From positions 1,832 to 65,831 of the forward strand of contig JAGOZX010000001.1 of the NCBI GenBank assembly GCA_018058425.1: a stretch of 64,000 bases of DNA, given 5' to 3'. Made by a program: the position numbers and the translations under genes. Positions within the stretch are counted from its first letter, which is position 1, and each line of letters begins with the position of its first letter. Under the pieces are notes generated by a model. It was not told where the DNA came from and did not search any database. It worked only from the letters and a program-made list of their open reading frames with translations. The stretch is from Sebaldella sp. (GTDB lineage: Bacteria; Fusobacteriota; Fusobacteriia; Fusobacteriales; Leptotrichiaceae). Below, piece after piece: positions 17,976 through 58,625 of this stretch.

Positions 17976-20900
17976 TCAAAATACAGCTTTTAATATAACT
18001 CCTGCTCTATAATCATTCTCATTATGTTCTCCTGCTATATACTCCCCATTTAAGAATACTCCGTATTTATCTTGTATTTCTACACCTAATGTAGCCCTAG
18101 TTCTAAAGCTTCCCCCTTCTTCCTCAGGTTTAGCTAAATCATGATAGTCTGTTTCGAGCATTCCTAACTTAGCTCTTTCCATTACATTTAAATCTCCCAA
18201 TTCATACTCATATGCTAAATCTAAAGTTCCTCTTAACTTCCATATTTCTTTTTTTCCTAAAGGAACCTCAGTTTTTAATTCTACACCAACTCTTGGTTTT
18301 ATACTCCATGCATCATTTCCTTCTACTTCTAATCTATCCTTACCCTCTTCTTCAAAGTCAGGTCTTATAATATACATAAGTCTAAATGCTCCATATGGAG
18401 TTATCCATTTATCATTTCCTAATGCTATCTCTCTTCCTATTATGTTATCACTTGTTAAACTATAAGTTTCATATGTCCCGTTCATCTCAGTTCTTCCTGA
18501 TTTTCCCCAATCTACATTTCTGTCTATATCATGAAAACTTATTCTACCTGTTAGATCATTTCTAAAAATCCAATTACTTACTTCATATTTATTATGCCCG
18601 CCAAGTTGTATAGTATCTACCCATTCTTCACTTTCATTATTATCATCAAACTCAAATCCTGTATGTAAGTATCCTAAAGAATAGCCTATTTTATGCTTAT
18701 CATTTTTTTCTATTTCTTTTAATGCTAAAACTCCTGTTGTAGTATAGTCATAGCCTATAACTCCCTGAGTTTTTTCCTCTGTAGTTCCCTTACCTGCAAT
18801 TATATTTATTTTTACACTTTCATCTGTGTTATTTTTTGAGTTTTGAAGTAAATTTAATGAATCTTCAAATGTTTTAACTACATCATTCTCTCTCTGATTT
18901 ATATTAGAATATACATTTCCTGTTATATTTCCAATTATTTTATTTAAACTTCCAGCATCTTCCACCATATCCAGTCTATCATAAAATAATAAAGCCTCTC
19001 CTTGAGCATTATCATACTTATCATCTAAATTTTTGGCGAAATTTTCCCACCAAGTTCCCTCAGCTACTTGCGAATACATAATTCTTTTCATCCATATGTC
19101 TAGATTACCTTTTGAATTTATATTTGGTATGGCTTCCCAAAAAATCCCCTTACTTAGTATATCAGATATACCACTATTCAATCCGCCATTTGATGTAGTT
19201 GGATTAAACACTTCTTCCAGCTTATATACACTAATATTTGTCCCTTGAGAAAAGTCTGGAGTTACCTCTATATTTCTTAGAATAAATTCTGGAGCTATGA
19301 ATTTTACAGCATCTGACACTAAAAATTTTCCATTTATATCTTCTGGAGCATACTCTGTTGGTAGTGGACTTGCTGGCCTTATAGTGCTAGGATCCACTTT
19401 TATTTGTACTACTGCATCTTCTGGAACTATAAATTTTTCATTTACCAATATTATTCCAGCATTAGTTATAGAAGGAAGATCATATTTAGGCCCAGGATTT
19501 AAATAACCTATTGGAGCTAAAACTGATGGATCTGTTACCAGTACCTGCCCTCCATTACTCAAATCCACATTTATCGTTCCTGAATTAATTAATGTCGAAC
19601 CATTTTTCATCAGTATCCCAATTCCATTTTTACCTGTTATATTGATTAATCCTTTATTTTCAATCTCTACATTTTCATCGGCATATATTCCAACACTATT
19701 TTCTCCGGATAAATTAATCACTCCTGTGGAATCATTTGTAATTTTTACATCCTTCATTCCAGCTATCCCAATAGAGTTATTTCCAGTTAGAATTATACTT
19801 CCTCTGTTAATAAATTCTTCTCCCTGTCCTACTTCTATAAATACACCTACTGTTTCTTCTCCATTAGAAGTAATTACTCCATTATTTTCTATTTTACCCA
19901 TTGGCTCATATGAGTAAATTCCCATTCCTTTTATTCCAGTTTCTATAGTTCCTGAATTAATCATATTTAGATTATTATAACCATACATTCCAGCAGCAAA
20001 GTCATTAATTACTGAATTATTTGGATTTACATAAGTATTCCCTACTTTTATAGTTCCTTGATTATCTACTGTACTTTCTTCAGCATAAATTCCTAAACTT
20101 ACATCTCCAGTTTCTATATTGCCTAGATTAATAACATTAGAGTTATTATCCCCATACATACCAATTCTTGAATTAATCATATTATTTGTTGTCCCTGAAT
20201 TAGCAATCCTACTCATATTTATAATTGTAGAATTATATCCATACATACCCACAGAACTTGTATTTATATTTAGAATAGCATTATTTATTAATGTACTCCC
20301 ATTTCTTCCAACATAACCAAAACTTCCACCTAATGAAATATTATTACCTACATTTATAGTTCCTGATCCTATTATTTGTGCTCCATCTGTACCATAAAAT
20401 CCTGCTGAATTCTCTCCATTAGCATTTATTAAACTATTATTTACTTGTACTTGTCCACCTTTTCCATAAAACCCTATTCCATTTCCTTCTATATTAATAG
20501 TTCCACCTGTTTGGTTTACCTGAATTTGATTCCCATATATCCCTACTGAGTCAATTCCTATTACCAAATCTCCTGTATTATTAATAACTGAATTTTTCTC
20601 TCCGTATATTCCTACATTATTTGTAGAGCCACCAGTACTAGATACTTTTATTAAGCCCGCATTATTTACTTGTAACTGCCCAGTTCCATCAGTAGTTCCA
20701 TATATTCCCACAGATGAACTTCCATTTACATTTATAATTCCAGTATTTTCTAGTTCGGCTATATTATTACTATTTGAATCTATAGCTAATATTCCAATGG
20801 CTTTTATTCCAGTAGCAATGATTTCTCCACTATTTAATACTCTGCCCTCTTCTTGAATAATACCCACAGCATTATTCCCAGATAGATTTACTTTATTATT

Positions 20901-23900
20901 TAAACTTATTCTCTTTTGAGAACCAATATCTGTTTTCAATAATATTCCAGTTTGTCCATTCTCAACATTAAGAGTCAAACCGTTTATTTCCATATCACTT
21001 AACATAAAGTTCTTTCCATATACACCTATAGACTCTGTTCCTTCTCTAACATAAATTGTTTTATTTGAATAAACATTTCCTTCTGATGTATATATCCCAA
21101 CTTGGTTTAACTTATTCAAATCATATACTCCTCCTGAAGTATCATTTAATGTAATTGTTGAATTTGATAAAGCCACTCTTTTTATATAATTATAAACAGA
21201 ATTTACTCCCAATTCTATAGTCCCAGAGTTAATTCTTATTTCTGAATTTTCTTTATCTGAAAGAAGCCCCACTCCAATGGAATAGTCACCTAATTTTATA
21301 CTCCCGCCATTTAAATTAATTATACTGTCTCTTCCATATATTCCAAGCGAATAATTCGTAAATCCAAGTGCTCCAGTAAAACCACTGGCTGTGCTTATAT
21401 TTCCAGTATTTGTGATATCTGTTCTTCCTCCAAATATTCCAGATGAATTACTTCCAGATAAATTTATATTTCCAGTATTTTCAATTGTTGATCTATTATT
21501 TAAATCATAACCAATTGAATAAATACCAACGGCTCTTTCACCAATAGACTCTATAATTCCAGTATTCTTTATTTTATTTTCTTTCCCTATTCCAGGAAGA
21601 GCCGTTATACCTGCTACATCATCTGCATAAATACCTATACTCTTATTTCCAACTGTAATTTTTCCAGCATTTTCAGTTTTAGATCCTAAAGTTATATATT
21701 CTCCTGCTCCTGAATCACCAATATTTATTGTTCCTATACTATCATTTGTTACAATTGAATAATGTCCAAAAAGTCCAATTCCTTCATTTCCCAAATCTAT
21801 TGTACCTTTATTAACTGCATAACCTAAATTTTCTATGTAAATTCCTGTAGATTGTACTGCCTTTGTTCCAGAAAATATTTTTGAAGTAATCTTACCCTCA
21901 TTTGTTATTATTGAGCTTCTTGCGAATATTCCCACACTACTATTTGGAACTATTAAATTTGTTCCTGAATTAGTAGAGAATGTAGAATTCGCCACTGTAA
22001 GTATCTCTATATTGCTATCAGGTGTTACTATTTCTGTTGTTGGTGAAATATTTATATTTCCATTATTCTGTATTACAAATAATGTACCACTTCCTGTTAT
22101 TTCTATTTTACCACCATTTATATTTACTGTTGCTCCATTTGTTCCCACAGCAACTGAACCATCTCCATTTACTCTTAAATAAACATTATTTAAATCTAAA
22201 ACATTCGCATTACTTAAATTTTTAGCATAGGCCCCAACTGCCGAATTTACGCCTCCAATTTCCCCTACTTCTATATCAGGATTTCCTAGACCAGAACCAT
22301 TATAAGTAACTTTACTTGTATTAGTAATTGCACCGTAGTAAAGTCCTACTGCTCCATCTCCACCGTACAATCCAGTAAACAGACTCTTATCACTGTCTAG
22401 GTTTACTACACCTAAAACTATAGGCTGAGCACTTAAAAGAACTCTATCCCCTATTTTTATACTTCTTATAGAACCATCTAAATTTGAATCTCCTGTCATT
22501 GAAATACCTGTTAAATTATCACCCAATATTATATCTTTTGAACCCAGCGAACTCTGTAAATTTCCATTTTCTAAAAAATATCCATTACTTCCTGTACCCA
22601 GATAAAATTTACTCTCATCGACCAAAGCATTGTCAAATACTCCAGATTTTATATATATTCCAGAACTATTTTCACCAGTAGTTACACTCTCTATACTATC
22701 TATAAAACTTGAATTTTCGGTATAAAGTCCTATACTATTTTTACCTGACTCTAATTTCCCTAACTTTATATTTCTAGATATATCTACTGCATTTAAATAT
22801 GCTGCTGCACCATTATCTCCAACCTTGATTATTCCACCTGCTGAGTTATCTATATTAGAGTTCTTTATATAAACTCCTAATGATCCTTCATTAGTAGTAC
22901 TTGAATTTAAAAGAGTTAATCCACCTATTCCCATAGTAATGTTTGATTTTTCTCCAATTGAAACAATACCTACACCTCTAGTTCCAGCTAACTGTGTTAG
23001 TTCACTTCCTGTTGTACCTACTTTTAAATTAGTTTCTACTGGGTCATCGCTGCTTCCATTTAAATAAATTCCAATCCCATTTTCTCCTAATTCTATAGTA
23101 CTATTAAATTCTATATCTCCCTGACTTACATATAAGCCTACATTTCCACCTGTACCAGAAACTTTTATACTTCCTGTTCCAGAGACCTTTAAATTCTCAT
23201 TCGTGGAATATATCCCAATATTATTATCCAGTATTGAATTACCTGTATTATCTATAATTCCATTGTTTATAATTTCTAAATTATCTGTATTACTATAAGC
23301 TTTAGAACTTAAAACTATTCCAATTCCATCATTTGTTATATTTATTTCATTATTATTTTCAAGCTTCTTTAAACCTGTATTTCCATTATCGAGTATATAT
23401 ATTCCTGTTCCTTGATCTAAATTTATTATCCCCGAGTTATTTACAATTGATCCTGTACCACTTGTAGGAGAATTAGATGTAACTTCGTATAAAACCCCAA
23501 TTCCTTCAGTTCCAAATAAATTAATTATATTACCAGATGAAAAATTTATACCATCCCAACCAGAATATATACCAGCACTATTCCCTTTAATAGTGAAAGT
23601 AGTATTTGTTAAATTTAATGTGTTTGATGTAGAAGAATCTAAATAAATACCATAATCATAGTCTCCTGCTACATCTAAGCTCTCTACACTTATATTACCA
23701 CTTATATTTAAAGTATTATTATTTTTTGCATATATTCCTATATCATTTCCATTTGTTCTTAAATTAACATTACTATTTACTCCTAAATTTACTGTTCCTG
23801 TTTCACTATAAACAGCTATATTATTATATATATTCCCAGTATTTATTCCTAGTGAGTTTAATTTTATACTTCCATCATTTTGAAATTTAGAATTAATATT

Positions 23901-25613
23901 TACTACACCTATATTTTGCTCTGAAGTATTAGATAAATTTAAAATTATTTCACCTATATTTTCAATCGTATTATTTGTAAGTCCTCCATTAACTCCATAC
24001 ATTCCTATATTTCCATTATTTATAGAGTCTACAGTTATCTCACCATCATTAATAATGATTGATGTACCATTTAGATTTGTAGCTGCCATTCCAACAGAAT
24101 TAGTAACGTTTCCATTTAATGTAATTATACCAGTACTTGAATTTGTATTAGTACCATTGTCTACTCTCACTCCATTGCTATTTGCACCATTAACCACGAC
24201 ACTTCCACTATTTAAAAAAGGTTTTGCTGATATATTTTGATATATTGCTGTGGAATTATCTCCATTTACAGTTATTTCTCCATTATTTAATACTGTATTA
24301 TCAGGAAATTTTGCAGATCCACCAACTACTACTCCATAACTATCTGTTCCATATAAATTTATTTTTCCATCTTGTGTAAATATATTTGTGAAATTTATAC
24401 TAGAATCTATATTTGTTGCTATTTGAACAACTGTATTTAAAAAATTTCCATTATTTAAATAAATGCCATAACTTCCATTTCCATATAAATTTATTTCTGC
24501 ATTAGCTCTGTTTGTTATCCCTATTGTTGTTGTTGCGTTTAGAACTTCAATTCCAACACTTGTATCTCCATTTAATGTTATAGAACCCCAGTTTTCTGCA
24601 TGTAGTAAGCTTCCATTACCTATAAAATCTATACCAATTATGTCATAACTTGATGGATCTGAAATTATACTTCCTTGATTTACATAAGATACATCTCCAC
24701 GTCCATTATACCCCTGTTCTATCTCTAATGCTTTAGCATTATTAGTATTTAACATAAGTTTCCCCATTGTAGTAAATGATATGACTTCGTTAGGATCCCC
24801 AGCAGGTGAACCATCCTGTGTTCTATGACTCTCTATTGCTATTATTCTTGAACCCGATGACTCTGTACCTATATCTGATGTAACTACATAAGTTAAATTA
24901 CCTACACCTCCTGTAGGATCAGCATAAGTAGATCCTTCTGTTCCTATTATCTGTGCTAAAGCTGTTTGTGTTGCATTACTTGCTAACATTGTTCCTTCAG
25001 GAAAGTCATCAAAATTTGTATACAAATTTTGATCAGTAGAACCAGAATTATATCCATTACCATTTCCTCTTAAACTTAATGTAGGAATGACTACTTGATC
25101 AAATGTTTTAGGAATAATATTTTCACTTAACAAAGTTATACTAATATCTCTTGTAATATTTATATCTTTTACTTGAAATGAAGTAGTTCCTCCAATAGTT
25201 AAATCTGGAAGGTCTGGTAAGGTCGGAACATTTATATTTACAGGATTTTTAATAATGGTAATATCTGAAATTTCTGGAATTACAGGTATTACTAAATCTA
25301 TATCCTTATCATTAAAAGTTATAAATCGTTTTCGAATTGTTGGTGTTAACTTGAAGAGTTTTGGCTCTGATGGTTCTATTTCTTTTATTGCTGAATTAGA
25401 ATTAGATTTTCCTATTTTATAATTATTATAGAAAGCAGTAAAAAAAACCTGCCACTCTAAATCACTTATAGTATATAAGTTGTAATTATTTTCAGGTTTT
25501 TCTGATTCAGTTACTAATACTTTATTCTCAATTTCATTATTCAAAACAATCATTTTATTTTCACTTAAAACAATTTCATTCAATATACACATTAATAATA
25601 TAAATTTCTTCAT
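17976..25613 (-). CDS. Giant autotransporter adhesin 1, 2545 aa
   Basis: The ATG at 25613 is chosen over an in-frame GTG at 25622 because AGGTGG lies just ahead of it. A signal peptide (MKKFILLMCILNEIVLS) is followed by a conserved head (DLEWQVFFTAFYNN, then IRKRFITFNDKDIDL) and a proline-rich segment (VPVIPEISDI…PTLPDLPDL). Residues ~190-2150 are a long repetitive beta-helix-like passenger with recurring N-x-G-x-I and S-x-GIY units. The last ~280 residues form a type V autotransporter barrel ending RAGVILKAVF with terminal Phe. Fusobacterial adhesins such as RadD and Fap2 have this layout. Adhesion is inferred; the ligand is unknown. Confidence 0.9.
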   Translation of the reverse strand: MKKFILLMCILNEIVLSENKMIVLNNEIENKVLVTESEKPENNYNLYTISDLEWQVFFTAFYNNYKIGKSNSNSAIKEIEPSEPKLFKLTPTIRKRFITFNDKDIDLVIPVIPEISDITIIKNPVNINVPTLPDLPDLTIGGTTSFQVKDINITRDISITLLSENIIPKTFDQVVIPTLSLRGNGNGYNSGSTDQNLYTNFDDFPEGTMLASNATQTALAQIIGTEGSTYADPTGGVGNLTYVVTSDIGTESSGSRIIAIESHRTQDGSPAGDPNEVISFTTMGKLMLNTNNAKALEIEQGYNGRGDVSYVNQGSIISDPSSYDIIGIDFIGNGSLLHAENWGSITLNGDTSVGIEVLNATTTIGITNRANAEINLYGNGSYGIYLNNGNFLNTVVQIATNIDSSINFTNIFTQDGKINLYGTDSYGVVVGGSAKFPDNTVLNNGEITVNGDNSTAIYQNISAKPFLNSGSVVVNGANSNGVRVDNGTNTNSSTGIITLNGNVTNSVGMAATNLNGTSIIINDGEITVDSINNGNIGMYGVNGGLTNNTIENIGEIILNLSNTSEQNIGVVNINSKFQNDGSIKLNSLGINTGNIYNNIAVYSETGTVNLGVNSNVNLRTNGNDIGIYAKNNNTLNISGNISVESLDVAGDYDYGIYLDSSTSNTLNLTNTTFTIKGNSAGIYSGWDGINFSSGNIINLFGTEGIGVLYEVTSNSPTSGTGSIVNNSGIINLDQGTGIYILDNGNTGLKKLENNNEINITNDGIGIVLSSKAYSNTDNLEIINNGIIDNTGNSILDNNIGIYSTNENLKVSGTGSIKVSGTGGNVGLYVSQGDIEFNSTIELGENGIGIYLNGSSDDPVETNLKVGTTGSELTQLAGTRGVGIVSIGEKSNITMGIGGLTLLNSSTTNEGSLGVYIKNSNIDNSAGGIIKVGDNGAAAYLNAVDISRNIKLGKLESGKNSIGLYTENSSFIDSIESVTTGENSSGIYIKSGVFDNALVDESKFYLGTGSNGYFLENGNLQSSLGSKDIILGDNLTGISMTGDSNLDGSIRSIKIGDRVLLSAQPIVLGVVNLDSDKSLFTGLYGGDGAVGLYYGAITNTSKVTYNGSGLGNPDIEVGEIGGVNSAVGAYAKNLSNANVLDLNNVYLRVNGDGSVAVGTNGATVNINGGKIEITGSGTLFVIQNNGNINISPTTEIVTPDSNIEILTVANSTFSTNSGTNLIVPNSSVGIFARSSIITNEGKITSKIFSGTKAVQSTGIYIENLGYAVNKGTIDLGNEGIGLFGHYSIVTNDSIGTINIGDSGAGEYITLGSKTENAGKITVGNKSIGIYADDVAGITALPGIGKENKIKNTGIIESIGERAVGIYSIGYDLNNRSTIENTGNINLSGSNSSGIFGGRTDITNTGNISTASGFTGALGFTNYSLGIYGRDSIINLNGGSIKLGDYSIGVGLLSDKENSEIRINSGTIELGVNSVYNYIKRVALSNSTITLNDTSGGVYDLNKLNQVGIYTSEGNVYSNKTIYVREGTESIGVYGKNFMLSDMEINGLTLNVENGQTGILLKTDIGSQKRISLNNKVNLSGNNAVGIIQEEGRVLNSGEIIATGIKAIGILAIDSNSNNIAELENTGIINVNGSSSVGIYGTTDGTGQLQVNNAGLIKVSSTGGSTNNVGIYGEKNSVINNTGDLVIGIDSVGIYGNQIQVNQTGGTINIEGNGIGFYGKGGQVQVNNSLINANGENSAGFYGTDGAQIIGSGTINVGNNISLGGSFGYVGRNGSTLINNAILNINTSSVGMYGYNSTIINMSRIANSGTTNNMINSRIGMYGDNNSNVINLGNIETGDVSLGIYAEESTVDNQGTIKVGNTYVNPNNSVINDFAAGMYGYNNLNMINSGTIETGIKGMGIYSYEPMGKIENNGVITSNGEETVGVFIEVGQGEEFINRGSIILTGNNSIGIAGMKDVKITNDSTGVINLSGENSVGIYADENVEIENKGLINITGKNGIGILMKNGSTLINSGTINVDLSNGGQVLVTDPSVLAPIGYLNPGPKYDLPSITNAGIILVNEKFIVPEDAVVQIKVDPSTIRPASPLPTEYAPEDINGKFLVSDAVKFIAPEFILRNIEVTPDFSQGTNISVYKLEEVFNPTTSNGGLNSGISDILSKGIFWEAIPNINSKGNLDIWMKRIMYSQVAEGTWWENFAKNLDDKYDNAQGEALLFYDRLDMVEDAGSLNKIIGNITGNVYSNINQRENDVVKTFEDSLNLLQNSKNNTDESVKINIIAGKGTTEEKTQGVIGYDYTTTGVLALKEIEKNDKHKIGYSLGYLHTGFEFDDNNESEEWVDTIQLGGHNKYEVSNWIFRNDLTGRISFHDIDRNVDWGKSGRTEMNGTYETYSLTSDNIIGREIALGNDKWITPYGAFRLMYIIRPDFEEEGKDRLEVEGNDAWSIKPRVGVELKTEVPLGKKEIWKLRGTLDLAYEYELGDLNVMERAKLGMLETDYHDLAKPEEEGGSFRTRATLGVEIQDKYGVFLNGEYIAGEHNENDYRAGVILKAVF

Positions 25614-25700
25614 TTTAACCACCTCAATATTCTAATAATCTTTAAGCATATTTTTCTCAAAAGCCCATTACTCAGCGTCTACAGTTGCTTTGATATACAA

Positions 25701-25859: not shown

Positions 25860-28800
25860 CTAAAATACTGCTTTTAAAGTAATCCCTGTTCTATAATCAT
25901 TTTGGCTGTTTCCTCCTATTGAATATTCTCCTGTTAAAAATATTCCATAAGTATCCTCTATTTCAGTTCCTATTATTATTTTTGTTACTAATTTTCCTTT
26001 TTCTTCTTTTGGCTTTGCCAAATTATGATACCCGTCTTCTATTGATACTAACCTTGCTTTCTCTTGAGTATTTAAATTAGCTAGTTCGTATTCATAAGCT
26101 ATATCTAAAGCTCCTTTTAATTTCCAACCATACTTATTCTCATTTGTTGAAACCTTAAGGTCAAACCCAGCTCTTGGCTTTATACTCCAAGCGTCATTTC
26201 CTTTCACTTGTAAACTATCCATTCCTTTTTCCTCAAAATTAGGTCTCATAATATACATTATTCTAAAAGCACCATATGGAGTTATTTGTAAATTTTTCCA
26301 TAACTGAAACTTTTTTCCTAAAATATTATCACTTGTTAAATCATAAGTTTCAAATATTCCATTAATTTCCGACCTAGCAGTTTTTATCCATCCTACATTT
26401 CTATCTATATTATGTAAGCTCGCTCTACCCATTAGATCATTTCTTAAAATCCAGTCATTTATTTCATACTTACTATGACCACCTATTTGTATTGTATCTA
26501 CCCATTCTTCACTTTTATTACCATCATCAAATTCAAAACCTGTGTGTAAGTATCCCAAAGAGTATCCTACAGTATGCTTATAATTTTTTTCCACTTCTTT
26601 TAAAGCAAGAACTCCTGTAGATGTATAGTCGTAGCCTATGACACCCGGAGTATTTTCTATTGTTGTTCCTTTTCCCGTTATTATATTTATCTTTACTCTT
26701 TCAGTTGTATTATTTTTCGAATTCTGAAGTAAGCTTAATGAACTTTCAAATGTTCTAGCTATATCATATTCTCTCTGATTTATATTAGAATAAATATTTC
26801 CTGATACATTTCCAATAATTCTATTTAATTCAGTAAGATTTTCTACCATATCCAGTCTATCATAAAATAACAGTGCATTTCCTTGTGCATTTTCATATTT
26901 ATCATCTAAACTCTTAGCAAATACTTCCCACAAAGTTCCTTTAGCTATCTTCGAGTATGGAATTCTCTCCATCCATATATCTAAATTTCCAGCAGGATTT
27001 ACGTTTGGAATAGCATTCCAGAATATCCCTTTACTTATAATATCAGATATTCCATAGTTTAATCCTCCATTTAATGTATTAGGATTAAAAACTTCTTCTA
27101 ATTTATAAGAATTCACATTTGTACCCTGTGAAAAATCTGGAGCTACTTCTATATTTCTCAATACAAATTCTGGAGCTATAAATTTTACAGAGTTTGATAC
27201 TAAAAACTTTCCATTTATATCTTCTAAATCATACCCTGTTGGTAGTGGACTTGCTGATCTCATAGTACTAGGATCCACTTTTATCTGAATTACTGCATTT
27301 TCTGGAACTATAAATTTTTCGCTTACCTTTATTATTCCTGAATTAATTATAGATGGTAAATTATAAGTAGGGCTTGGGTTTAAATAATTTACAGGTGCCA
27401 AAACAGATGGGTCTGTTACTAGGACCCTTCCCCCATTCCCAGCATTTACATTTATTGTCCCTGAATTGACCAAAGTTGATCCATTTTTCATTAGTATTCC
27501 TATACCATTTTGACCAGTTACATTAATTATCCCTTTATTTTCTATTATTATATTTAGATCAGCATATATACCTACGCTATTTTGACCAGTTAAATTTATT
27601 ACTCCAGTAGTTTCATTTGTAATTTTTACATCTTTTACACCAGCTATTCCAACAGAATTATTCCCAGTTAAAATTATACTACCCCTGTTAATAAACTCTT
27701 GGTTCTGACCAGATTCTATATACACACCCACTGTTTCTTCTCCAGCTGATGAAATCATACCATTATTTTCTATTTTATCCATTGGTTTATAAGAATAAAC
27801 TCCTATTCCTTTTACTCCTGTTTCAATGACCCCTGAATTTATCATATTTAAGTTTTTGTAACCATACATACCGGTAGCAAAATCATTAATTGATAAATTA
27901 TTTGGATCTATATATGTATCCCCCAATTTTATAGTTCCCCAATTTTCTGCCAAGCTCTCTTCTGCATAAATTCCTGAACTTACATTTCCAGTTTCTATAT
28001 TTCCCAAATTGATAATACTAGAATTATTACTTCCATACATACCAACTCTTGAATTTCTCACATTACTTGCTGTACCCGATTTAGAAATAGTATTAGCATT
28101 AATAATAGTAGAATTATCTGAATACATACCAACAGAACTTATACCTAAGTTTACAGCTGCATTATTAATTAATGTACTTCCATTTCTTCCTACATACCCA
28201 AAACTCCCAGCTGGCATATTTCCATTTGCTCCTGCATTTGAAGATCCTACATTTATAACTCCTGTTGCTGTTATATATGCTCCATCTGTTCCATAAAAGC
28301 CTGCTGAATTCTCTCCTATAACATTGATTAGACTTCCAGTGGCTTGAATCTGCCCACCTTTTCCATAAAAGCCTACTCCATTTCCATCTATATTTATAAC
28401 CCCATTTATTTGATTTACTAAAACTTGATTTTCATAAATACCTATAGATTCTCCTCCAATAAAGAAGTTTCCAGTACTATTAATTGTTGTATTTCTCTCT
28501 CCATATATTCCAACATTAGTTGTAATACTATCTGAAACACTAATTGTTCCACTATTATTTATTATTAATTGCCCTGTTCCGTCTGTAGTTCCATATATTC
28601 CCACAGAAGAGTCTCCAATTACATTTATATTCCCTGTATTTATTAACTCTCCTGTAATAGTACTATCTACATCTATTCCCAGTATTCCAATAGATTTTGT
28701 TCCAATTACTGTTGTCTCTCCGGTATTTAAAACTCTTCCCCCCTCTTGAATTAGACCTGTTGCTTTATCTCCAGAAACATGTATTTTATTATTAAAAGTT

Positions 28801-31800
28801 ATTTGTTTTGAAGAGCTAAAGTCAGCTCTTAATACAGAACCTGTTTGTTCCTTCTCCACATTTAAAGTTAAGCCGGAAATAGTTATATCACTAAATATTG
28901 AATTTTTTCCATATACACCTATCGATCCAGTTCCTTCTCTTACATAAATTGTTTTATTAGAAAAAATATCTCCTTCTGATGTATAAATACCAAATTGATT
29001 TAACTTATTTAAGTCGTAAATTCCACCCGAAGTATCTGTTAATGATACTTTTGAAGATGATAAAGGATTTCTTTTTACATAATTATAGATAGAGTTTGCA
29101 CCAGCCTGTATATTTCCTGAAATAATTTTCATTTCTGAATCTTCACTATTTGCTATTACTCCTACTCCAACAGAATAATCTCCTGTATTTATGTTTCCAC
29201 CATTTATAATAATTAAGCTGTCTGTTCCAAATACCCCAAGAGAGTAATTTAATCCAACAACACCACTCCCTAAAGTAATATTTCCTGAATTTAAAATATC
29301 TGTTCTTTCCCCATAAATTCCTGATGTACCATATCCTATTAAATTTATATTCCCAGTATTTTCAGCTACTGATCTATTATCCAAATCATATCCTACAGAA
29401 TAAATCCCTATAGTTTCATTGGCTACAGAATTTATTCTTCCAGCATTCTTTATTTTATTTTCTTTTCCTACTCCTTGAATTCCTGCTACACCTAATATGT
29501 CATCTGCATAAATTCCCACACCCAAGCTTCCTATTACAATTTCTCCATTATTTTCTGCAATAGATCCTAATGTAATGTATTCTCCTGCTCCTGAATCTCC
29601 AATATTTATCATGCCTGTAACATCATTTATAATACTTGAATAGTGTCCAAAAAGCCCTATTCCTTCATCACCTAAATTTATTTTATTTTTATTGATTATA
29701 AAGCCAAAGTTTTCAGCATAGATTCCTGTTGATTGAATAGCTTTTACGCCTGAGAATATTTTTGATTCTATTTCTCCATTATTTGTAATTATAGAATTTT
29801 TTGCAAATATTCCTATACTTTTGTTTGGAACTACTATTTTTGTTCCTGAATTATTTGTGTAAGTTGAATTTATTACTGTAAATATCTCTACTCCAGTATT
29901 TGGAGTTACTATTTCTGTTGTTGGAGATATATTTATTCTCCCATTATTCTGTATTACAAATACTGATCCTTTTCCTGTTATTTCAATTTTTCCTCCATTT
30001 ATATTTACAGTACCCCCATTTACTCCTAATGCAACAGTTCCATCTCCATTTGCTTTTAAATAAGTATTATTTAAATCTAAAACATTTGCATTATTTAAAG
30101 CTTTTGCATACACCCCAATAGCAGGATATAATCCACCAATTTTCCCTGTTTCTATATCTGGAATACTTGCACCTATCCCATTATAAGTCACTTTATTTGA
30201 ATTCATTGTTGCATCATAATAAAGTGCTACAACTCCATCTCCTCCAGATAAACTTGTAGTAATATTTACAGGACTACCTAAGTTTTCAATTCCCAATACT
30301 GTAGATTGGACACTTGAAATAGTTTTATCTCCTATTTTCAGACTCTTAATTGTACTGTCTATATTAGAATTACCTGTCATTAAAATTCCTGTTAAGTTAT
30401 CTCCAAGTACTATATTTTTCATAACTGATGAACTCGTTAAACTTCCATTTTCTAAGAAATATCCGTTACTTCCTACTCCTAAGTAAAACTTATTTTCATC
30501 CATAAAAGAACTATCAAATATTCCTGATTTTATATATACTGCTGTACTATTCTCATCAGTTGTTATACTATCCATACTATCTATAAAACTAGAGTTTTCA
30601 GTATACAAACCTATACCATTTTTTCCTGTTTCTAATTTTCCTAACTTTATAGTTCTAAAAGTATCTACTTTATTTAAATATACTGCTGTTCCATTATCTC
30701 CGACTTTTATTAGACCTCCAGCTGAGTTATCTAAATTAGAATTTTCTACATAGATTCCTAATGATCCGCTATTTAAGTCATTGATTCCTAAAAGTGTTAG
30801 ACCACCAGTCCCCATTATAATATTTGCTTTTTCTCCACTTGAAACTATTCCTATACTTTTAGTACCACCTATTTGTGTTATCTCATTTCCAATTGTTCCT
30901 ATTCTTAAACTAGTTCCTATTATATTATCTACACTTCCATTTAGGTAAATTCCTATTCCATTTTCCCCTAATTCTATATTACTATTAAATTCTACTTCTC
31001 CTTGATTAGCATACAATCCTATATTCTTTCCAATTGAAGATACCTTTATACTTCCACTACCAGAAACTTTTATATTTTCATTTTTTGAATATATTCCTAT
31101 ACTATTATTTATTGCTGAATTACTTGTATTTTCTATTATTCCATTATTTATTGTTTCAAGATTATCTAGTATATTATAGTTTTTTGAATTTACAGCTATT
31201 CCAATTCCGCCATCAGTAACATTTATTTTATTTAAATTTTCTAGTTTTTTTAATCCTGTATTTCCATTATCCATTACATATATTCCAGTTCCACCACTTA
31301 CATTTATTACTCCAGAATTTCTAACAACTGATGCAACAGAGCTTACAGGTGAATTTGAAGTCACTTCATATAAAATGCCAATTCCATCATCGCCCGACAA
31401 ATTAATTGTATTTCCTGATGCAAAATTTATACTATTCCATCCAGAATATATTCCTATGCTCTTATTATTTATATTAAATGCTGTATTTACCAAGTTTAAT
31501 GTATTTGAAGTTTGTGAATCTAAATAAATTCCATAATTAAAATTATCTGGTTCATTATTTGTTACTGTTATACTTCCTCCTGTATTTAGCACTCCTCCAT
31601 TTTTTACATATGCTCCTATTGTATTTCCAACAGTATTTAGTGTTATTTTACTTCCTGTTCCTAAGTTTACTATTCCTCCTTCATTAAAAATAGCACCATT
31701 AGTCTTTAAGCTATTATTATTTCCAGAAATTCCAGCAACTTTAAGTTCAATACTCCCATTATTTTGGAATTTGGAATTTATATTTACGACTCCTATATTC

Positions 31801-33485
31801 ATATTTGAATCTCTATTTAGATTTAAATTTATTTCTCCAGAATTAAAAATTGTATTATTTACTAGTCCTCCATTAATTCCATACATTCCAATATTTTCAT
31901 TATTAATAGAGTTTATATTTATTTTTTGATTATTTATAATTACTGTGTTTCCATCTTTATTTGTAGAGGCCATTCCCACAGAATTTTCAGTTTCAGCACT
32001 TAAGTTTATTATACCATTATTTATATTAGTACCATTATCTACTCTCACTCCATTGCTATTTTCACTATATACTTCTATTATCCCAGTATTTATAAAAGAC
32101 TTATTAGCTATAGTTTGGTATAATCCTGTAGAATTTTCACCATTTACAGTGATTAAACCATTATTTAGTACTGCATTATTGGGTAAAATAACTCCACCAG
32201 GCAGTACAGCTACACCATAGTTATTTTTCCCATATAAATTTATTTCTCCATCCTGAACAAATTTATTAGAAAAAATTATGCTCGGATCTAAATTTGTATA
32301 TGTTCCAGTAAAGTTTCCTTGTAAATTTCCCTTCTTAAGGTAAATTCCATAACTGCTATCTCCATATAAATTTATTTCCGCGCCTAATTTATTTACAACT
32401 CCTATTGCAGTGGTAGTATTTAGTACTTCTATTCCTATACTTGTATTTCCATTTAGAGTTATTCCCCCCCAATTTTCTGCTTGAAGTAAATTTCCTCCTC
32501 CTATAAAGTCTATTCCTATAACATTATAACTAGAAGAACTAGATATTATCTTTCCTTTATTTATATAAATAGAATTTCCTGGTCCTGAATATCCCTGCTC
32601 TGTTTCTACTGCTTTGGAATTATTAGCATTTATTATTAGATTTCCAGTTGTAGTTACTGATATAATTTGATTTAAATCACCTACTGGTGACCCAAGCTCT
32701 CCTCTATGACTTTCTATAGCTATTATTCTCGATCCTGGTAAGTTTGTTCCTATATCTGAACTTATAATATAACTTAAATTACCATTTCCACCTGCTTTAT
32801 TTCTATTATTTGAGTCTTCAGTGCCTATAAACTGGACCAAAGCTGTTTGTTTTGCATTACTTGCCAACATAGTTCCATTTGTAAAATCTGCAAAATTAGT
32901 ATATAAATTTTGAGCAGTTGACCAATTGTTATAACCATTAGCATTTCCTGCTAAACTTATTGTTGGAATAACTATATCAGCAAAAAATTTAGGAAATATA
33001 TTTATATCTAGTAATTCTATCTCTTTATCTCTTGTTATATTTATACTCTCTACTTCTAATGAACTTATACCCGAAAATTTAATATCAGGTAAATTTTTAG
33101 ATATTGGAATATCTATACTTATTGGATTTTTAGCAATCATTATATCTGGAATTTCTGGTATTATAGGTACATTCAAATCTATATTTTTATCACTAAAAGA
33201 TATAAACCTTTTTCGTATTATTGGACTTAATTTAAAAAGTCTTTTTTCTGGTGGTAAAAGTTCTAATTCATTTGTGTTTGTTTCACCCTGACCCTTTTTT
33301 TTATAATCATAAAAAGCACTAAAAAATACCTGCCACTCCAAATACTCTTTTTCATTAGTATTTTTAGATTTTTCAGTTTTTTTTAGTGCCTTTGTTTTAT
33401 TAGTATTTTTATTTACTCCTAAACTTTTATTTTCACTTAACATAATCCCGTTTAATACACACATTAGGAATATAAATCTCTTCAT
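25860..33485 (-). CDS. Giant autotransporter adhesin 2, 2541 aa
   Basis: This is a paralogue of the gene at 17976-25613 along its whole length: the same signal peptide type (MKRFIFLMCVLNGIMLS), head (YLEWQVFFSAFYDY, IRKRFISFSDKNIDL), proline-rich segment, passenger with S-x-GIY repeats, linker (VTDPSVLAPVNYLNP near 2130) and barrel ending RTGITLKAVF. AAGGAG precedes the ATG at 33485. The two proteins differ by only four residues in length, so almost no repeat units have been gained or lost since duplication. It encodes a surface-exposed type V secreted protein; the binding partner is unknown. There is no protease motif that I can see. Confidence 0.9.
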   Translation of the reverse strand: MKRFIFLMCVLNGIMLSENKSLGVNKNTNKTKALKKTEKSKNTNEKEYLEWQVFFSAFYDYKKKGQGETNTNELELLPPEKRLFKLSPIIRKRFISFSDKNIDLNVPIIPEIPDIMIAKNPISIDIPISKNLPDIKFSGISSLEVESINITRDKEIELLDINIFPKFFADIVIPTISLAGNANGYNNWSTAQNLYTNFADFTNGTMLASNAKQTALVQFIGTEDSNNRNKAGGNGNLSYIISSDIGTNLPGSRIIAIESHRGELGSPVGDLNQIISVTTTGNLIINANNSKAVETEQGYSGPGNSIYINKGKIISSSSSYNVIGIDFIGGGNLLQAENWGGITLNGNTSIGIEVLNTTTAIGVVNKLGAEINLYGDSSYGIYLKKGNLQGNFTGTYTNLDPSIIFSNKFVQDGEINLYGKNNYGVAVLPGGVILPNNAVLNNGLITVNGENSTGLYQTIANKSFINTGIIEVYSENSNGVRVDNGTNINNGIINLSAETENSVGMASTNKDGNTVIINNQKININSINNENIGMYGINGGLVNNTIFNSGEINLNLNRDSNMNIGVVNINSKFQNNGSIELKVAGISGNNNSLKTNGAIFNEGGIVNLGTGSKITLNTVGNTIGAYVKNGGVLNTGGSITVTNNEPDNFNYGIYLDSQTSNTLNLVNTAFNINNKSIGIYSGWNSINFASGNTINLSGDDGIGILYEVTSNSPVSSVASVVRNSGVINVSGGTGIYVMDNGNTGLKKLENLNKINVTDGGIGIAVNSKNYNILDNLETINNGIIENTSNSAINNSIGIYSKNENIKVSGSGSIKVSSIGKNIGLYANQGEVEFNSNIELGENGIGIYLNGSVDNIIGTSLRIGTIGNEITQIGGTKSIGIVSSGEKANIIMGTGGLTLLGINDLNSGSLGIYVENSNLDNSAGGLIKVGDNGTAVYLNKVDTFRTIKLGKLETGKNGIGLYTENSSFIDSMDSITTDENSTAVYIKSGIFDSSFMDENKFYLGVGSNGYFLENGSLTSSSVMKNIVLGDNLTGILMTGNSNIDSTIKSLKIGDKTISSVQSTVLGIENLGSPVNITTSLSGGDGVVALYYDATMNSNKVTYNGIGASIPDIETGKIGGLYPAIGVYAKALNNANVLDLNNTYLKANGDGTVALGVNGGTVNINGGKIEITGKGSVFVIQNNGRINISPTTEIVTPNTGVEIFTVINSTYTNNSGTKIVVPNKSIGIFAKNSIITNNGEIESKIFSGVKAIQSTGIYAENFGFIINKNKINLGDEGIGLFGHYSSIINDVTGMINIGDSGAGEYITLGSIAENNGEIVIGSLGVGIYADDILGVAGIQGVGKENKIKNAGRINSVANETIGIYSVGYDLDNRSVAENTGNINLIGYGTSGIYGERTDILNSGNITLGSGVVGLNYSLGVFGTDSLIIINGGNINTGDYSVGVGVIANSEDSEMKIISGNIQAGANSIYNYVKRNPLSSSKVSLTDTSGGIYDLNKLNQFGIYTSEGDIFSNKTIYVREGTGSIGVYGKNSIFSDITISGLTLNVEKEQTGSVLRADFSSSKQITFNNKIHVSGDKATGLIQEGGRVLNTGETTVIGTKSIGILGIDVDSTITGELINTGNINVIGDSSVGIYGTTDGTGQLIINNSGTISVSDSITTNVGIYGERNTTINSTGNFFIGGESIGIYENQVLVNQINGVINIDGNGVGFYGKGGQIQATGSLINVIGENSAGFYGTDGAYITATGVINVGSSNAGANGNMPAGSFGYVGRNGSTLINNAAVNLGISSVGMYSDNSTIINANTISKSGTASNVRNSRVGMYGSNNSSIINLGNIETGNVSSGIYAEESLAENWGTIKLGDTYIDPNNLSINDFATGMYGYKNLNMINSGVIETGVKGIGVYSYKPMDKIENNGMISSAGEETVGVYIESGQNQEFINRGSIILTGNNSVGIAGVKDVKITNETTGVINLTGQNSVGIYADLNIIIENKGIINVTGQNGIGILMKNGSTLVNSGTINVNAGNGGRVLVTDPSVLAPVNYLNPSPTYNLPSIINSGIIKVSEKFIVPENAVIQIKVDPSTMRSASPLPTGYDLEDINGKFLVSNSVKFIAPEFVLRNIEVAPDFSQGTNVNSYKLEEVFNPNTLNGGLNYGISDIISKGIFWNAIPNVNPAGNLDIWMERIPYSKIAKGTLWEVFAKSLDDKYENAQGNALLFYDRLDMVENLTELNRIIGNVSGNIYSNINQREYDIARTFESSLSLLQNSKNNTTERVKINIITGKGTTIENTPGVIGYDYTSTGVLALKEVEKNYKHTVGYSLGYLHTGFEFDDGNKSEEWVDTIQIGGHSKYEINDWILRNDLMGRASLHNIDRNVGWIKTARSEINGIFETYDLTSDNILGKKFQLWKNLQITPYGAFRIMYIMRPNFEEKGMDSLQVKGNDAWSIKPRAGFDLKVSTNENKYGWKLKGALDIAYEYELANLNTQEKARLVSIEDGYHNLAKPKEEKGKLVTKIIIGTEIEDTYGIFLTGEYSIGGNSQNDYRTGITLKAVF

Positions 33486-52478: not shown

Positions 52479-53048
52479 ATGTCTAAAAGAGAAGATATTT
52501 TAAATATTTCAGAAACACTCTTTGCAGTCAAAGGTTTTAATAGTGTCACAACTAAAAGAATCGCTGAAGAATCAGGATGCAGCGAACTGACAATTTTCAG
52601 AATATTTAAAACAAAAGAAAAATTATTGGAAGAAACTATTGAGAGAATTATGGGTAGAATGCCTGCATTTTTTCAGCAAGTTGATGATAGTTTTTCAGAT
52701 GATATGGAAGATTCTATAAGAAAGGTAATAGCCCTTTATCTAACTATGCTATTTAATAATTCTACGTTATTTAAAATTCAACTGAAATTATCAGAAGAAA
52801 CTGGAAACAATCATTTTATAATTACTAGTAGAGTTTATGAACTATTAATTAGAAAATTTTCAGTTTTATTTGAAAAATATAAACTTGAATATCCATGTGA
52901 AAAATTTGTTAATTTATTGGTCACTTCTGTCTATGGGAATTATGTATTTTTCACTCTAGATGATGTAAATGCACCAAAATATAGAATAGATGTGCTTATT
53001 GATGACATCTCTTTACTAATAATTTCTTTTTTCAATAATATTAAATAA
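52479..53048 (+). CDS. TetR-family regulator
   Basis: The N-terminal ~50 residues are a TetR helix-turn-helix (ILNISETLFAVKGFNSVTTK, then RIAEESGCSELTIFRIFKTKE). The C-terminal ~135 residues are a helical ligand-binding domain with no identifiable ligand. AAGGAG precedes the ATG. It reads toward the oleate hydratase gene (tail to tail) and is divergent from mutS. Regulation of the neighbouring fatty-acid genes by this protein is plausible but not shown; no shared operator was found by eye. The upstream 288 bases hold a short GTATA/TATAC inverted repeat near 52452-52465. Confidence 0.9.
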   Translation: MSKREDILNISETLFAVKGFNSVTTKRIAEESGCSELTIFRIFKTKEKLLEETIERIMGRMPAFFQQVDDSFSDDMEDSIRKVIALYLTMLFNNSTLFKIQLKLSEETGNNHFIITSRVYELLIRKFSVLFEKYKLEYPCEKFVNLLVTSVYGNYVFFTLDDVNAPKYRIDVLIDDISLLIISFFNNIK

Positions 53049-53059
53049 TAATATACCAT

Positions 53060-53091
53060 AAAATTAGAGATTTTTTTTCGTCTCTAATTTT
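53060..53091 (+). terminator. TetR gene terminator
   Basis: A perfect 11-bp stem (AAAATTAGAGA and TCTCTAATTTT) has a ten-base T-rich loop, 12 bases after the stop codon. The T-tail is short (TTTTG). Confidence 0.65.
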
Positions 53092-53292
53092 GTCTTACCT
53101 TTCCCTGTTTCTATGGAAAACTATGGTTTTATATTTGACTTTCGAGATTTTTTATAAATTTAAAATTTATTATTATTCACAAAATTTTCATAGATACCAT
53201 ACTTTCATTTCCCTTGATAACTTATCAATAATTTAGATTTCCATAAAATTATTTTTTATAAACTTTTATATAACTGCTTTTTAAAAATAAAT

Positions 53293-53355
53293 AGATCCTA
53301 GAACTTATCATTCCAAATTATATTACATAAGGAAATCTAAAATTATCTAGGATCT
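53293..53355 (-). terminator. Probable oleate hydratase terminator
   Basis: A nine-base perfect inverted repeat (AGATCCTAG / CTAGGATCT) has a ~45-base loop with an inner TTCC/GGAA pair. On the minus strand it is followed by ATTTATTTTT. The large loop makes it atypical. Confidence 0.5.
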
Positions 53356-53443
53356 TAGTATTATTAATAAAATTTAAAAACTAAATAATAGCTTTTCTTA
53401 CTTTCTCAAATTCTTATTTCTATATCAAGATCACTTTAGTTGA

Positions 53444-55210
53444 TTAAATAATATTATATTCTTTCAATAAATCTTCCATAACTGTATTTGATATTGTTTT
53501 CAATCCTTGCTTTTCTACTAATTTTAGTAGAAATGGGACTTTGACATCTATAAGCTTTTTACCGTCTAACATTTTAGAAGTAGCATCCAATAATACTCTA
53601 ATATCATAACATGAACCAAACACTTCTGGTACTCCTCGATCTACATTAAGCAAAGTATAGACTGCTTCCATTGCTGTTCTGGCAGAATATTCAATTGTAA
53701 ATACTGTATCTCTCACTGTATTTGAAAACTGCCCAATAAATGCAAAATTTGTACATCCATCTGGTACCACATTAGGTCTGTCTCCTTTAGTCCTTGGCAT
53801 AAAAAATGCGGTAACATAAGGCATCATACACGGAATACAATTTGCTGACTTCGTTGCTAATTCAAGAATTTCAGATTCTGGAACACCCATATGATACAGC
53901 CATTCCTGCGTTATCTCAATTCCGGTACATTCTTTCATAGGTTTTTTTATATAATTTCCTGGAATATCACCAAAAAGACCATATAACCAAACTACAAGCT
54001 GATCCTTTGGCTGTTCTTTAAAATGAGGCTGTCGATTTAGTGTATAACTCATAAGCCAGTTTGAATCTTTTACTGTTATAATCCCACCTGTTACGACTTT
54101 TCCACTAAATGGGTCACGTTTACAAATTTTTTCAATATATGAAGGTATCTTATTATCTAAAGTTGTTATTGTTGCTGATTCCCAGTTAGTTGCCTTTGTA
54201 TTAGTAAAAAACTTATCAGGATTTCCAAAAGACTGGTCTTGTACTGCAATATTTCTCCATAATTCCTGTGAAGGACCATTAGAGTCTTTTAATTCTGGGG
54301 CGTGTTCATTATCTCCTAGAGAAGAATTTTCAGTACAGCTTCCATTTGTAACAAAAACTAAGTTATCCTCACTTAAATTAATAGTTTCTTCTTTCCCATC
54401 ATGTAAACAAAGAATTTTTTTTGCAATTTTCTTTTCATTTGTGATATCAAAAATAACATTTGTAACCTTTATATTATATTGAAAATCCACATTATTTGTT
54501 TCTAAATATTTTATCATTGGTAAAATTAAAGATTCATATTGATTATATTTTGTAAATTTTAAGGCAGAAAAGTCTGGCAGCCCTCCAATATGATGAATAA
54601 ATCGTTGAATATAAAGTTTCATTTCTAATGCACTATGCCATTCTTCGAAAGCAAACATTGTTCTCCAATAAAGCCAAAAGTTTGATGAGAAAAATTCATC
54701 AGTCAGTACATCAGAAAGCTTCTTATCATATAAACTTTCATCACGGCTCATAAATAATTTCATGATTTCCATTGCAGCTGCATCACTAAGTCCAAATTTA
54801 CCATTAGTATGCGCATCTTCACCTCTATTAGCAGTAACCCTCATTAAAGAAAAGTTTGGGTCTTCTTTATTCAGCCAATAGAACTCGTCTAAGACAGAAG
54901 CTCCTTCTGTTTCCAGTGAAGGAATAGAACGAAATAAATCCCATAAACACTCATAATGATTTTCCATTTCTCTACCACCACGAATAATAAAACCTTTGTT
55001 ACCATGAATTCCATCACAAGCTCCTCCTGCAATATCAGATTCTTCAAGAATGTGAATATTCTTACCTTCCATCTGACCATCTCGTATTAAAAAACATGCT
55101 GCTGCTAAAGATGCTAATCCAGCTCCTACTAAATATGCTGACTTTTTTTCCACACCTATTGGTTTTTTAGGTCTTGCAAATGCTTCATAGTTTCCATTAC
55201 TATAATACAT
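53444..55210 (-). CDS. ohyA: Oleate hydratase
   Basis: This FAD enzyme adds water to the cis-9 double bond of oleic or palmitoleic acid, giving 10-hydroxy fatty acids; such proteins were first named myosin-cross-reactive antigens. The FAD motif GAGLAS is at 29-34 ([16 protein letters not shown]), followed by the family motif [22 protein letters not shown] near 77-98, which holds the catalytic Glu and FAD-contacting residues. Length (588) is typical. Roles known in other bacteria include detoxifying host unsaturated fatty acids. AGGAGGT precedes the ATG at 55210. It is transcribed alone. Confidence 0.95.
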
Positions 55211-56955: not shown

Positions 56956-56984
56956 TTGATTTTAAAAATCTCTTATGTTATAAT
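56956..56984 (+). promoter_or_regulatory. Promoter of the hflX attenuator
   Basis: TTGATT (56956-56961), a 17-bp spacer and an extended -10 TGTTATAAT (TATAAT 56979-56984). The start site is near 56991, upstream of the leader peptide. Confidence 0.75.
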
Positions 56985-57018
56985 AATTTATATTATTAAG
57001 AATGGAGGATGTTCACTG

Positions 57019-57054
57019 ATGATTTTTATTAGATTGAGATTTCAGAATGTATAA
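57019..57054 (+). CDS. hflX leader peptide with Arg-Leu-Arg motif
   Basis: The frame encodes MIFIRLRFQNV. The Arg-x-Arg arrest motif (RLRF) is the one known from the ErmD-type leader, on which macrolide-bound ribosomes stall. GGAGG ends ten bases before the ATG, a slightly long but workable spacing. The stop is at 57052-57054. Its translation is inferred; no homologue was searched for. Confidence 0.5.
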   Translation: MIFIRLRFQNV

Positions 57055-57176
57055 CCAATTGAATATGCAAGAACTCTGTTTATGTGCAGAGAATGGGATT
57101 AGTCTATCTAGTATTTAAGTGAATAACTTTACATCAAATTTTATTATTAAAATATTTAATTTAATTTTTTATAGAG

Positions 57177-57203
57177 AAAAGATAGTTAGTAACTATCTTT
57201 TTT
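57177..57203 (+). terminator. Terminator between the leader and hflX
   Basis: AAAAGATAGTT (57177-57187) pairs perfectly with AACTATCTTTT (57191-57201) over a three-base loop, with a T-run to 57203. It lies 162 bases before the hflX start and no gene ends just before it, which points to attenuation. A TATAAT at 57259-57264 without a -35 could be a second, weaker promoter. Confidence 0.85.
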
Positions 57204-57365
57204 ATTATTATATATAAATCACAGACATCTATATCAGTCTCTATGATTTTAAATTTCATATAATATTACTTAAATGTAAGAACTTTACACCATTTTGTTT
57301 TATGCACAAAAACTATGTTTCTTGTACACTTAACAGCTTATGGAAATTTAAAGGAGGAAAATTAT

Positions 57366-58625
57366 ATGACAAGAAAGGCAATTATAGTAGGAGTTAATTC
57401 TAATCATCATAAAAACTTTGATTATATGATGGATGAATTACAAAACTTAGCTGAGGCAGATAATATTGAAGTAATAGAGAGAATGACACAGGGCTTAGCA
57501 AAAATTCACTCTGGCCACTATATTGGAAAAGGAAAAATAACAGAGTTAAAAGAGGCTGCTGATGAAAAAGAGGCAGATGTAATTATTTTTAATGATGAAT
57601 TGTCTCCTTACCAAATTAGAAATTTAGAAAACTTATTAGAGTATGAAGTTATTGATAGAACTATGCTCATTTTAGACATTTTTGCTAAAAGAGCTAAAAC
57701 TAAAGAAGCTCAGTTACAAGTAGAAACTGCAAGGCTTCAATACGAGCTTCCAAGAGTCAGAGGTGGTCAAGAAGAAAATTTAGACCAGCAAGGCGGAGGT
57801 TCTGGTACTACAAATAGAGGATCTGGTGAAGGAAAATTAGAAATTAATTTAAGAACCATCAGACATAGAATACAGCTTCTAAATAAAGAATTAGAAAAAA
57901 TAGTAAAAGAAAGAGCATTACAACGTAAGAAACGTAAAAAGAAAGGAATTCCTGTTGTTTCCCTTGTAGGATATACAAATGCTGGAAAATCTACAATAAT
58001 GAATAATTTTGTTTCTAAATTTAATGAGTCTGAAAATAAAGATGTTTTTGAAAAAGACATGCTTTTTGCTACACTAGAAACGAGTGTTCGTAATATCACT
58101 CTTCCAGATAATAAAGAATTTTTATTAACAGATACGGTTGGTTTTGTTAGTAATTTACCACATAACCTAATAAAAGCATTTCGTTCTACTTTAGAAGAAG
58201 TTTGTGAGGCTGATTTACTTATCCATGTAGTAGACAGTTCTAGTGAGCATTTGGACGAAATGATAAAGACTACAAATGAAACACTTAAAGAAATAGGTGT
58301 CAAAGATATACCTGTTATCTATGCTTATAATAAAATTGATTTATTAAATACTGAAATTCCTGAACAAAGTGAAAATATATTACATATTTCAGCAAAAAAT
58401 GATATTGGAATGGATTTATTATTGGAAAAAATAAATGATCATATATTCAAAGATTATATAAAAACAGCGTTTTTAATTCCTTATGACAAGGGAGAAATCA
58501 TCTCTTACTTTAATGAAAGCACTAATGTTCTAGATATTTCATACGAGGAAAATGGCACAAAAATAACTGTTGAATGTCATCAAAATGACTTTAACAGATA
58601 TAAAATCTATGCTGTTGAAATTTAG
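57366..58625 (+). CDS. hflX: Ribosome-associated GTPase HflX
   Basis: The ATG at 57366 (AAAGGAGGAAAATTAT ahead of it) is preferred over an upstream in-frame start at 57315. HflX binds stalled 70S ribosomes and splits them; related HflXr proteins give macrolide-lincosamide resistance in Listeria. The N-terminal HflX domain (1-~130, with SGHYIGKGKITELK near 49-62) and helical linker are followed by the GTPase: G1 GYTNAGKST at 202-210, G3 DTVGF at 256-260, and NKID near 324. Length 419 is usual. Its own attenuator-like leader suggests antibiotic- or stress-controlled expression. Confidence 0.95.
   Translation: MTRKAIIVGVNSNHHKNFDYMMDELQNLAEADNIEVIERMTQGLAKIHSGHYIGKGKITELKEAADEKEADVIIFNDELSPYQIRNLENLLEYEVIDRTMLILDIFAKRAKTKEAQLQVETARLQYELPRVRGGQEENLDQQGGGSGTTNRGSGEGKLEINLRTIRHRIQLLNKELEKIVKERALQRKKRKKKGIPVVSLVGYTNAGKSTIMNNFVSKFNESENKDVFEKDMLFATLETSVRNITLPDNKEFLLTDTVGFVSNLPHNLIKAFRSTLEEVCEADLLIHVVDSSSEHLDEMIKTTNETLKEIGVKDIPVIYAYNKIDLLNTEIPEQSENILHISAKNDIGMDLLLEKINDHIFKDYIKTAFLIPYDKGEIISYFNESTNVLDISYEENGTKITVECHQNDFNRYKIYAVEI

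Follow-up and report, generated by a model that had tools for sequence, protein, structure and literature searches.

A candidate macrolide-sensing transcription attenuator upstream of an HflXr-type gene in Sebaldella

The window analysed here is a 64,000-nucleotide stretch of DNA from the 3.24-Mb draft genome of a Sebaldella-like member of the Leptotrichiaceae (Fusobacteriota), a gut-type, Gram-negative, anaerobic host. An HflXr-type hflX gene within it, acquired from Bacillota, is very probably under the control of an ErmD/ErmK-rli80 type attenuator, in which the ribosome decides whether transcription continues. An original prediction, made from this DNA, had proposed an ErmD-like macrolide-sensing attenuator on an HflXr-type gene in a Gram-negative anaerobe; on sequence evidence, the observation of the leader is sound and the core of its interpretation holds, being supported by homology and thus beyond analogy. 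The leader shares an RNA family with elements found in Gram-positive bacteria before macrolide and lincosamide resistance genes, which strongly suggests that the window hflX would be switched on by ribosome-blocking antibiotics.

Layout of the leader region

All features described below lie on the forward strand. The hflX gene (57366-58625) encodes an HflXr-type GTPase of 419 aa (TIGR03156, 434 bits) and is preceded by its own GGAGG Shine-Dalgarno sequence at 57353-57357. Transcription is predicted to start from a sigma-70 type promoter at 56956-56984 (TTGATT-N17-TATAAT with an extended -10, TG). Downstream of this, the sensor domain of the attenuator RNA was placed at 57000-57130 by profile scores of the two models described below (model match 57000-57129). 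A GGAGG at 57004-57008, nearly invariant in the family alignment, leads an 11-codon frame, uORF1 (MIFIRLRFQNV, 57019-57054), in which the Arg-Leu-Arg codons occupy 57031-57039.

Three paired elements were assigned within the sensor domain. The P1 stem joins 57005-57017 to 57118-57130, and the P2 stem joins 57027-57044, which lies on the presumed arrest codons, to the GGGATTAGTCTATC arm at 57094-57113; both were identified by folding and by a family-wide pairing test. Between the P2 arms stands a conserved CTCTG-loop-CAGAG hairpin (57074-57091). An intrinsic terminator hairpin followed by U residues was found by hairpin search at 57176-57202 (dG -9.7). A terminator scan demanding at least three G-C stem pairs reports none before the window hflX because the stem is AT-rich. 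The promoter, GGAGG, 11-codon frame and terminator named in the original prediction are thus all in place, and their layout is conserved in relatives.

Conservation within Sebaldella

Taken by itself, the RLR motif is weak evidence, since [RK]x[RK] is present in 9% of random 10-codon peptides of window-leader composition. A short frame with this motif and a strong Shine-Dalgarno sequence arose in 0.55% of dinucleotide shuffles of 56985-57365 (4.3% with a looser Shine-Dalgarno sequence), and the single-sequence fold of the leader was moderately better than that of shuffles (MFE z-score -1.8). Conservation in relatives, together with the match of an independent model (E 3e-11), places the leader beyond chance by these measures.

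The hflX genes of two relatives, genome G001 and Sebaldella termitidis (G003), are 71% identical to the window gene, and hflX lies close to fabV and mutS in all three genomes. In both relatives the promoter reads TTGCAT-N17-TATTAT, the layout is that of the window, and the GGAGG, the 11-codon frame, the CTCTG..CAGAG hairpin, TTAGTCTATC and the GATAGTTA terminator are kept. Promoter, GGAGG, leader frame, stems and terminator are therefore retained in 3/3 Sebaldella genomes with an HflXr-type hflX. The genome of a further genus-mate (G002, 86% complete) gave neither an HflX match of HflXr type nor the leader, and the relatives gave no Erm match above the curated cut-off. Leader identity between the window and S. 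termitidis is 61% (shuffled 37% +/- 6), and the UTR between terminator and hflX is unalignable, at the random level (25%, shuffled 24%).

The leader peptides of the relatives are MWIAKLKMQND in G001 and MWIIDLRMQND in S. termitidis. The original prediction had tied itself to conservation of the leader frame and of its RLR codons: the frame is retained in both relatives, and the +x+ motif persists as RLR in the window and KLK in G001 but not in S. termitidis, where the ATG frame reads DLR and the strict motif is absent. An overlapping GTG frame in S. termitidis, starting two bases further 3', reads MDYRLKNAK with an RLK motif and may be in use.

The DLR peptide, the weak, AT-rich terminator stems of the two relatives (dG -6.1), the divergence from the Bacillota models and the weak family-wide antiterminator test described below would also suit a leader that has decayed, that is, an attenuator homologue that has lost its switching in Sebaldella and leaves hflX to be expressed constitutively by read-through or from a second promoter. 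We regard this as very improbable, since promoter, Shine-Dalgarno sequence, frame length, stems and terminator have all been kept beside a UTR that has fully diverged. Moreover, the P1 stem has been maintained through a compensatory change, TTCAC/GTGAA in the window against TTCGC/GCGAA in the relatives.

RNA structure and the proposed switch

RNAalifold on 7 or 100 aligned leaders misses P1 and P2 because their arms slide; with 100 sequences it recovered the CTCTG..CAGAG hairpin only, with compensatory changes in 5/6 pairs. P1 and P2 were therefore assessed with an alignment-free comparison of native and cross pairing. Native P1 pairs averaged -15.8 kcal/mol vs -9.2 for cross pairs and were better in 90/93 leaders (p 8e-17); for P2 the values were -13.4 vs -11.0 kcal/mol, with the native pair better in 82/93 (p 2e-13). 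The pairing of both stems is sequence-specific across the family. In 98/100 family members the leader is succeeded by a hairpin resembling a terminator (dG -7 or lower), vs 11 in shuffles.

A candidate antiterminator is given by CTATCT in the P2 3' arm (57104-57109), which could alternatively pair with AGATAG at 57180-57185. This pairing amounts to -4.8 to -7.6 kcal/mol within Sebaldella, with a mean of about -4 between lineages, and in the native-vs-cross comparison across the family it was not significant (p 0.06), nor did it reach significance in a second design. In equilibrium folding the terminator has a probability of about 0.96 with or without the leader masked; any switch must accordingly be kinetic, acting during transcription. 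The antiterminator pairing is only suggestive and forms the least secure step of the model. On this side point the original prediction falls short of statistical support.

The attenuator is envisaged to work as follows. With no drug, ribosomes would either translate the leader frame or ignore it, and the GTCTATC arm would stay bound within the stacked P1/P2 sensor stem; the terminator at 57176-57202 would then form, and transcription would end before hflX. With a macrolide, possibly also a lincosamide, in the ribosome, translation would arrest at the Arg-Leu-Arg codons. Because these codons lie inside the P2 5' arm, the arrested ribosome would open P2, and with it P1. The freed CTATCT could then pair with AGATAG in the terminator 5' arm, so that RNA polymerase would read through, and the HflX produced would split or recycle drug-blocked ribosomes. 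What computation shows directly is the anatomy and its conservation, the place of the leader in the RNA family, the association with resistance genes and the HflXr ancestry; we infer the arrest at RLR, the antiterminator step, induction and resistance.

A 23-codon Sebaldella-specific frame (MYNQLNMQELCLCAENGISLSSI, 57047-57118), doubtful in function, overlaps the uORF1 stop, and the original prediction had suggested that it could make the switch bicistronic. Such a switch would depend on the overlapping frame as its second sensor, an arrangement that has been put forward for certain erm leaders. The frame is indeed open and overlapping in 3/3 Sebaldella genomes, with QLNMQ.LC kept, but a frame of this type is found in only 7/91 family leaders, three of them from Sebaldella. 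The nucleotides under QLNMQ, furthermore, match the RNA consensus of the element in Bacilli, where a frame of this type is mostly missing. The second frame as a general family feature was rejected on these counts, and a two-frame switch is unlikely; the frame may be a local feature that does not define the switch.

The RNA family and its downstream genes

Two models of the leader were used. R2 is a sequence model built from four Bacillota hflX leaders only, and R1 is a seven-sequence model whose training set includes the window and its two relatives. The Bacillota hflX leaders share GGAGGgttnCC, the peptide, CTCTG..CAGAG and GGGATTRGTCTGCC; those of Thermoactinomycetaceae, Compostibacillus, Anaerocolumna and Listeria encode RLRF-type peptides (MWSSRLRFQTLN, MTAAMRLRFQTLNR, MGIFLYKFRFKALCN and MRYIRLRFPKNLCN). 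R2 matches the window leader at 57000-57122 with 39.9 bits (E 3.3e-11). The R1 score of 82 bits is not independent, as is true of R1 scores for the two relatives, these sequences being in the training set. G001 was matched by R2 only weakly (11.6 bits) and S. termitidis not at all, so the membership of these two rests on likeness to the window copy. The shared element, made up of the Shine-Dalgarno stem P1, P2 on the arrest codons, the CTCTG/CAGAG hairpin and the GGGATTRGTCT arm, is present in the window.

The same Bacillota hflX-leader model matches the Bacillus licheniformis ermD leader (peptide MTHSMRLRFPTLNQ; 55 bits, E 1e-16), which bears out the ErmD likeness originally claimed for the window, and a Mef(F)/Msr(G) leader in Macrococcoides (50.8 bits). 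Judged by the features tested, the window RNA is a macrolide attenuator of the rli80/uORFC-6-1/ErmD-K type. No match in Rfam 15 at gathering score was obtained for the window leader or for 20 loci with the element, and permissive Rfam thresholds gave nothing credible.

R1 matches were found in 102/398 evenly drawn Bacilli genomes, nearly all of these matches lying outside its training set, and in 6/391 Clostridia. Among 98 Fusobacteriota, R1 matched the three Sebaldella genomes and gave one marginal 16-bit match (G004). Of 109 element copies, among which those from related species are not independent, 108 are immediately followed by an hflX, mph, msr, erm, mef, rlmA(II)-like or lmrB-like gene. 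By class these genes were HflX (30, including the three from Sebaldella), Mph macrolide phosphotransferase (20), Msr ABC-F (19), Erm (19), Mef-like efflux (9), RlmA(II)/TlrB-like methyltransferase (6) and LmrB-like efflux (5); these classes, from NCBIfam/Pfam on representatives and tblastn for others, are family-level calls, many below the cut-offs for named alleles. The remaining copy (L180) precedes another MFS efflux gene, as judged from its sequence. A further copy of the element (R2 31.6 bits, E 2e-9) was seen next to IS26 on a mobilizable plasmid of Acinetobacter variabilis (L227, 2975-3089), where the annotation places genes for an SDR oxidoreductase and a hypothetical protein downstream, neither of them a known resistance gene.

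This gene company bears on what the attenuator would sense. HflX homologues rescue heat-stalled ribosomes (PMC6310831), the S. termitidis ATG frame is without a strict +x+ motif, and a pause of whatever cause over codons 5-7 would suffice to open P2; hflX could on these grounds be a stress gene whose leader senses slowed translation in general (arginine or charged-tRNA shortage, heat, several ribosome drugs) and is not macrolide-specific. Against such a general sensor, which we consider improbable, stand the near-exclusive placing of the element before dedicated macrolide/lincosamide resistance genes and the presence of the macrolide arrest motif [RK]x[RK] in 97/104 leader peptides of the family, the GTG frame being the one counted for S. 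termitidis. A leader that senses macrolides through arrest at RLR is thus the preferred reading, and the resistance context assigned to hflX in the original prediction finds support in the genes that follow the element.

Ancestry of the hflX gene

The window HflX aligns with Listeria HflXr (PDB 8a57_D) over its full length with 492 bits, vs 247 bits for E. coli HflX. HD-loop length separates HflXr, with the longer loop, from canonical HflX (recent review, PMC12493154), and the HD-loop segment of the window protein has 50 residues, compared with 49-53 in HflXr and 47 in canonical HflX. In two trees the three Sebaldella HflX proteins fall within Bacillota HflXr sequences, apart both from the ~600-aa HflX of Fusobacteriaceae and from canonical Bacillota HflX; the HflXr assignment made earlier is upheld. 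The sister group in the tree, some Lactobacillaceae (97 SH-aLRT), involves long branches and is not trustworthy. A single clade of Sebaldella and other fusobacterial HflX was rejected (AU p 4.2e-5), and with it vertical descent of the window hflX from fusobacterial HflX. Horizontal transfer of hflXr from Bacillota would be the simplest reading. A search of viral contigs for HflX relatives returned none; the window leader DNA had no match in phages and one short partial match only in plasmids.

Two other hflX loci were observed in the course of these comparisons. In a 25-kb plasmid of Paraclostridium bifermentans (L082, 1893-4330), hflX has an MFS transporter gene on one side and an rlmN-like gene on the other, and an upstream short frame ending FFLRLRG that is unmatched by the RNA models. 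In Fusibacter tunisiensis (L052) a GGAGG-led frame, MNKFMRLKNSTLK (RLK), stands ~100 bases before hflXr; the RNA models do not match it either, and this leader is possibly independent or strongly diverged.

Other features of the window

Upstream of the hflX region, a SAM riboswitch (RF00162, 73 bits) at 9633-9720 on the reverse strand is the sole one in the genome and lies just upstream of the S-adenosylmethionine synthetase gene (8287-9438, reverse strand). An HTH/S24-peptidase repressor beside a phage integrase (5274-7637, forward strand) possibly marks the edge of a mobile element. Two successive frames of ~2540 codons occupy 17976-25622 and 25860-33485 on the reverse strand, the first with an autotransporter beta-domain; in S. 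termitidis and G001 a large frame that looks alike adjoins hflX on the far side. At 52479-55210 a TetR-type regulator gene adjoins an oleate hydratase gene.

Comparison with known systems

We think it likely that the rli80, uORFC-6-1 and ermD/ermK leaders form a single family of homologous RNAs. On this view the family is a modular cassette for macrolide sensing that has come to precede seven or more non-homologous families of resistance genes; together with hflXr it would have passed from Bacillota into Fusobacteriota and persisted there from a time before the Sebaldella species diverged. An incomplete literature search, without supplements, found no paper treating the RNA element as a single family across these gene classes. 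The locus itself would be a fusobacterial addition to a known kind of macrolide-sensing attenuator, placed on a Bacillota-derived hflXr. As a candidate antibiotic-inducible HflX outside Gram-positive bacteria, it is chromosomal and has been kept for long. Of most interest, more than the single locus, are the uniform gene company and the breadth of the RNA element. This one RNA sensor, which has no match in Rfam 15, could be used as bait for macrolide/lincosamide resistance genes, given that 108/109 copies located purely from RNA sequence adjoin such a gene, and unnamed genes that follow a copy become readable as resistance candidates.

That stalling leaders are employed by several resistance genes was noted earlier (PMC6310831, PMC11264731), as was the resemblance between the peptides encoded by the mef(E), msr(A), erm(K) and erm(D) leaders (PMC4335068, PMC10314930). 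The mef(E)L, msr(A)L and tlrB leaders resemble the window leader, when compared by peptides, in that their +x+ peptides govern macrolide resistance by attenuation (PMC4335068, PMC10314930, PMC6851288); they differ in their downstream genes, and the tlrB leader peptide is MIIQFIRYR.

The leaders of ermD/ermK, known transcription attenuators (PMC4335068 and references therein), are also close. By score they are the same RNA element as the window leader, with an RLRF core and, as the window sequence suggests, the same transcription attenuation kind of control. The ermD and window leaders are 52% identical (shuffled 31% +/- 9). Unlike the window, ermD/ermK control an rRNA methyltransferase, and in the ermD leader the first hairpin is followed by an additional one with a T-run.

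For the hflX branch of the RNA family, the closest published description is the uORFC-6-1 motif of the Breaker laboratory (PMC8632094), which, compared by description, likewise has an RLR uORF with covarying structure before hflX. That motif rests on 51 sequences, mainly from Bacillales and mainly before hflX, and the section consulted makes no mention of Fusobacteriota.

A further close system is the rli80 leader of Listeria monocytogenes hflXr (lmo0762), which also combines an RLR peptide, a sensor stem, a terminator and an HflXr-type gene and is matched by the same models as the window leader. The window differs from rli80 in its shorter peptide (11 codons), its far more AT-rich leader, its overlapping second frame and its Gram-negative fusobacterial host. 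Induction has been demonstrated in Listeria rli80-hflXr only, and the window leader, known here from its sequence, would be its counterpart in Sebaldella.
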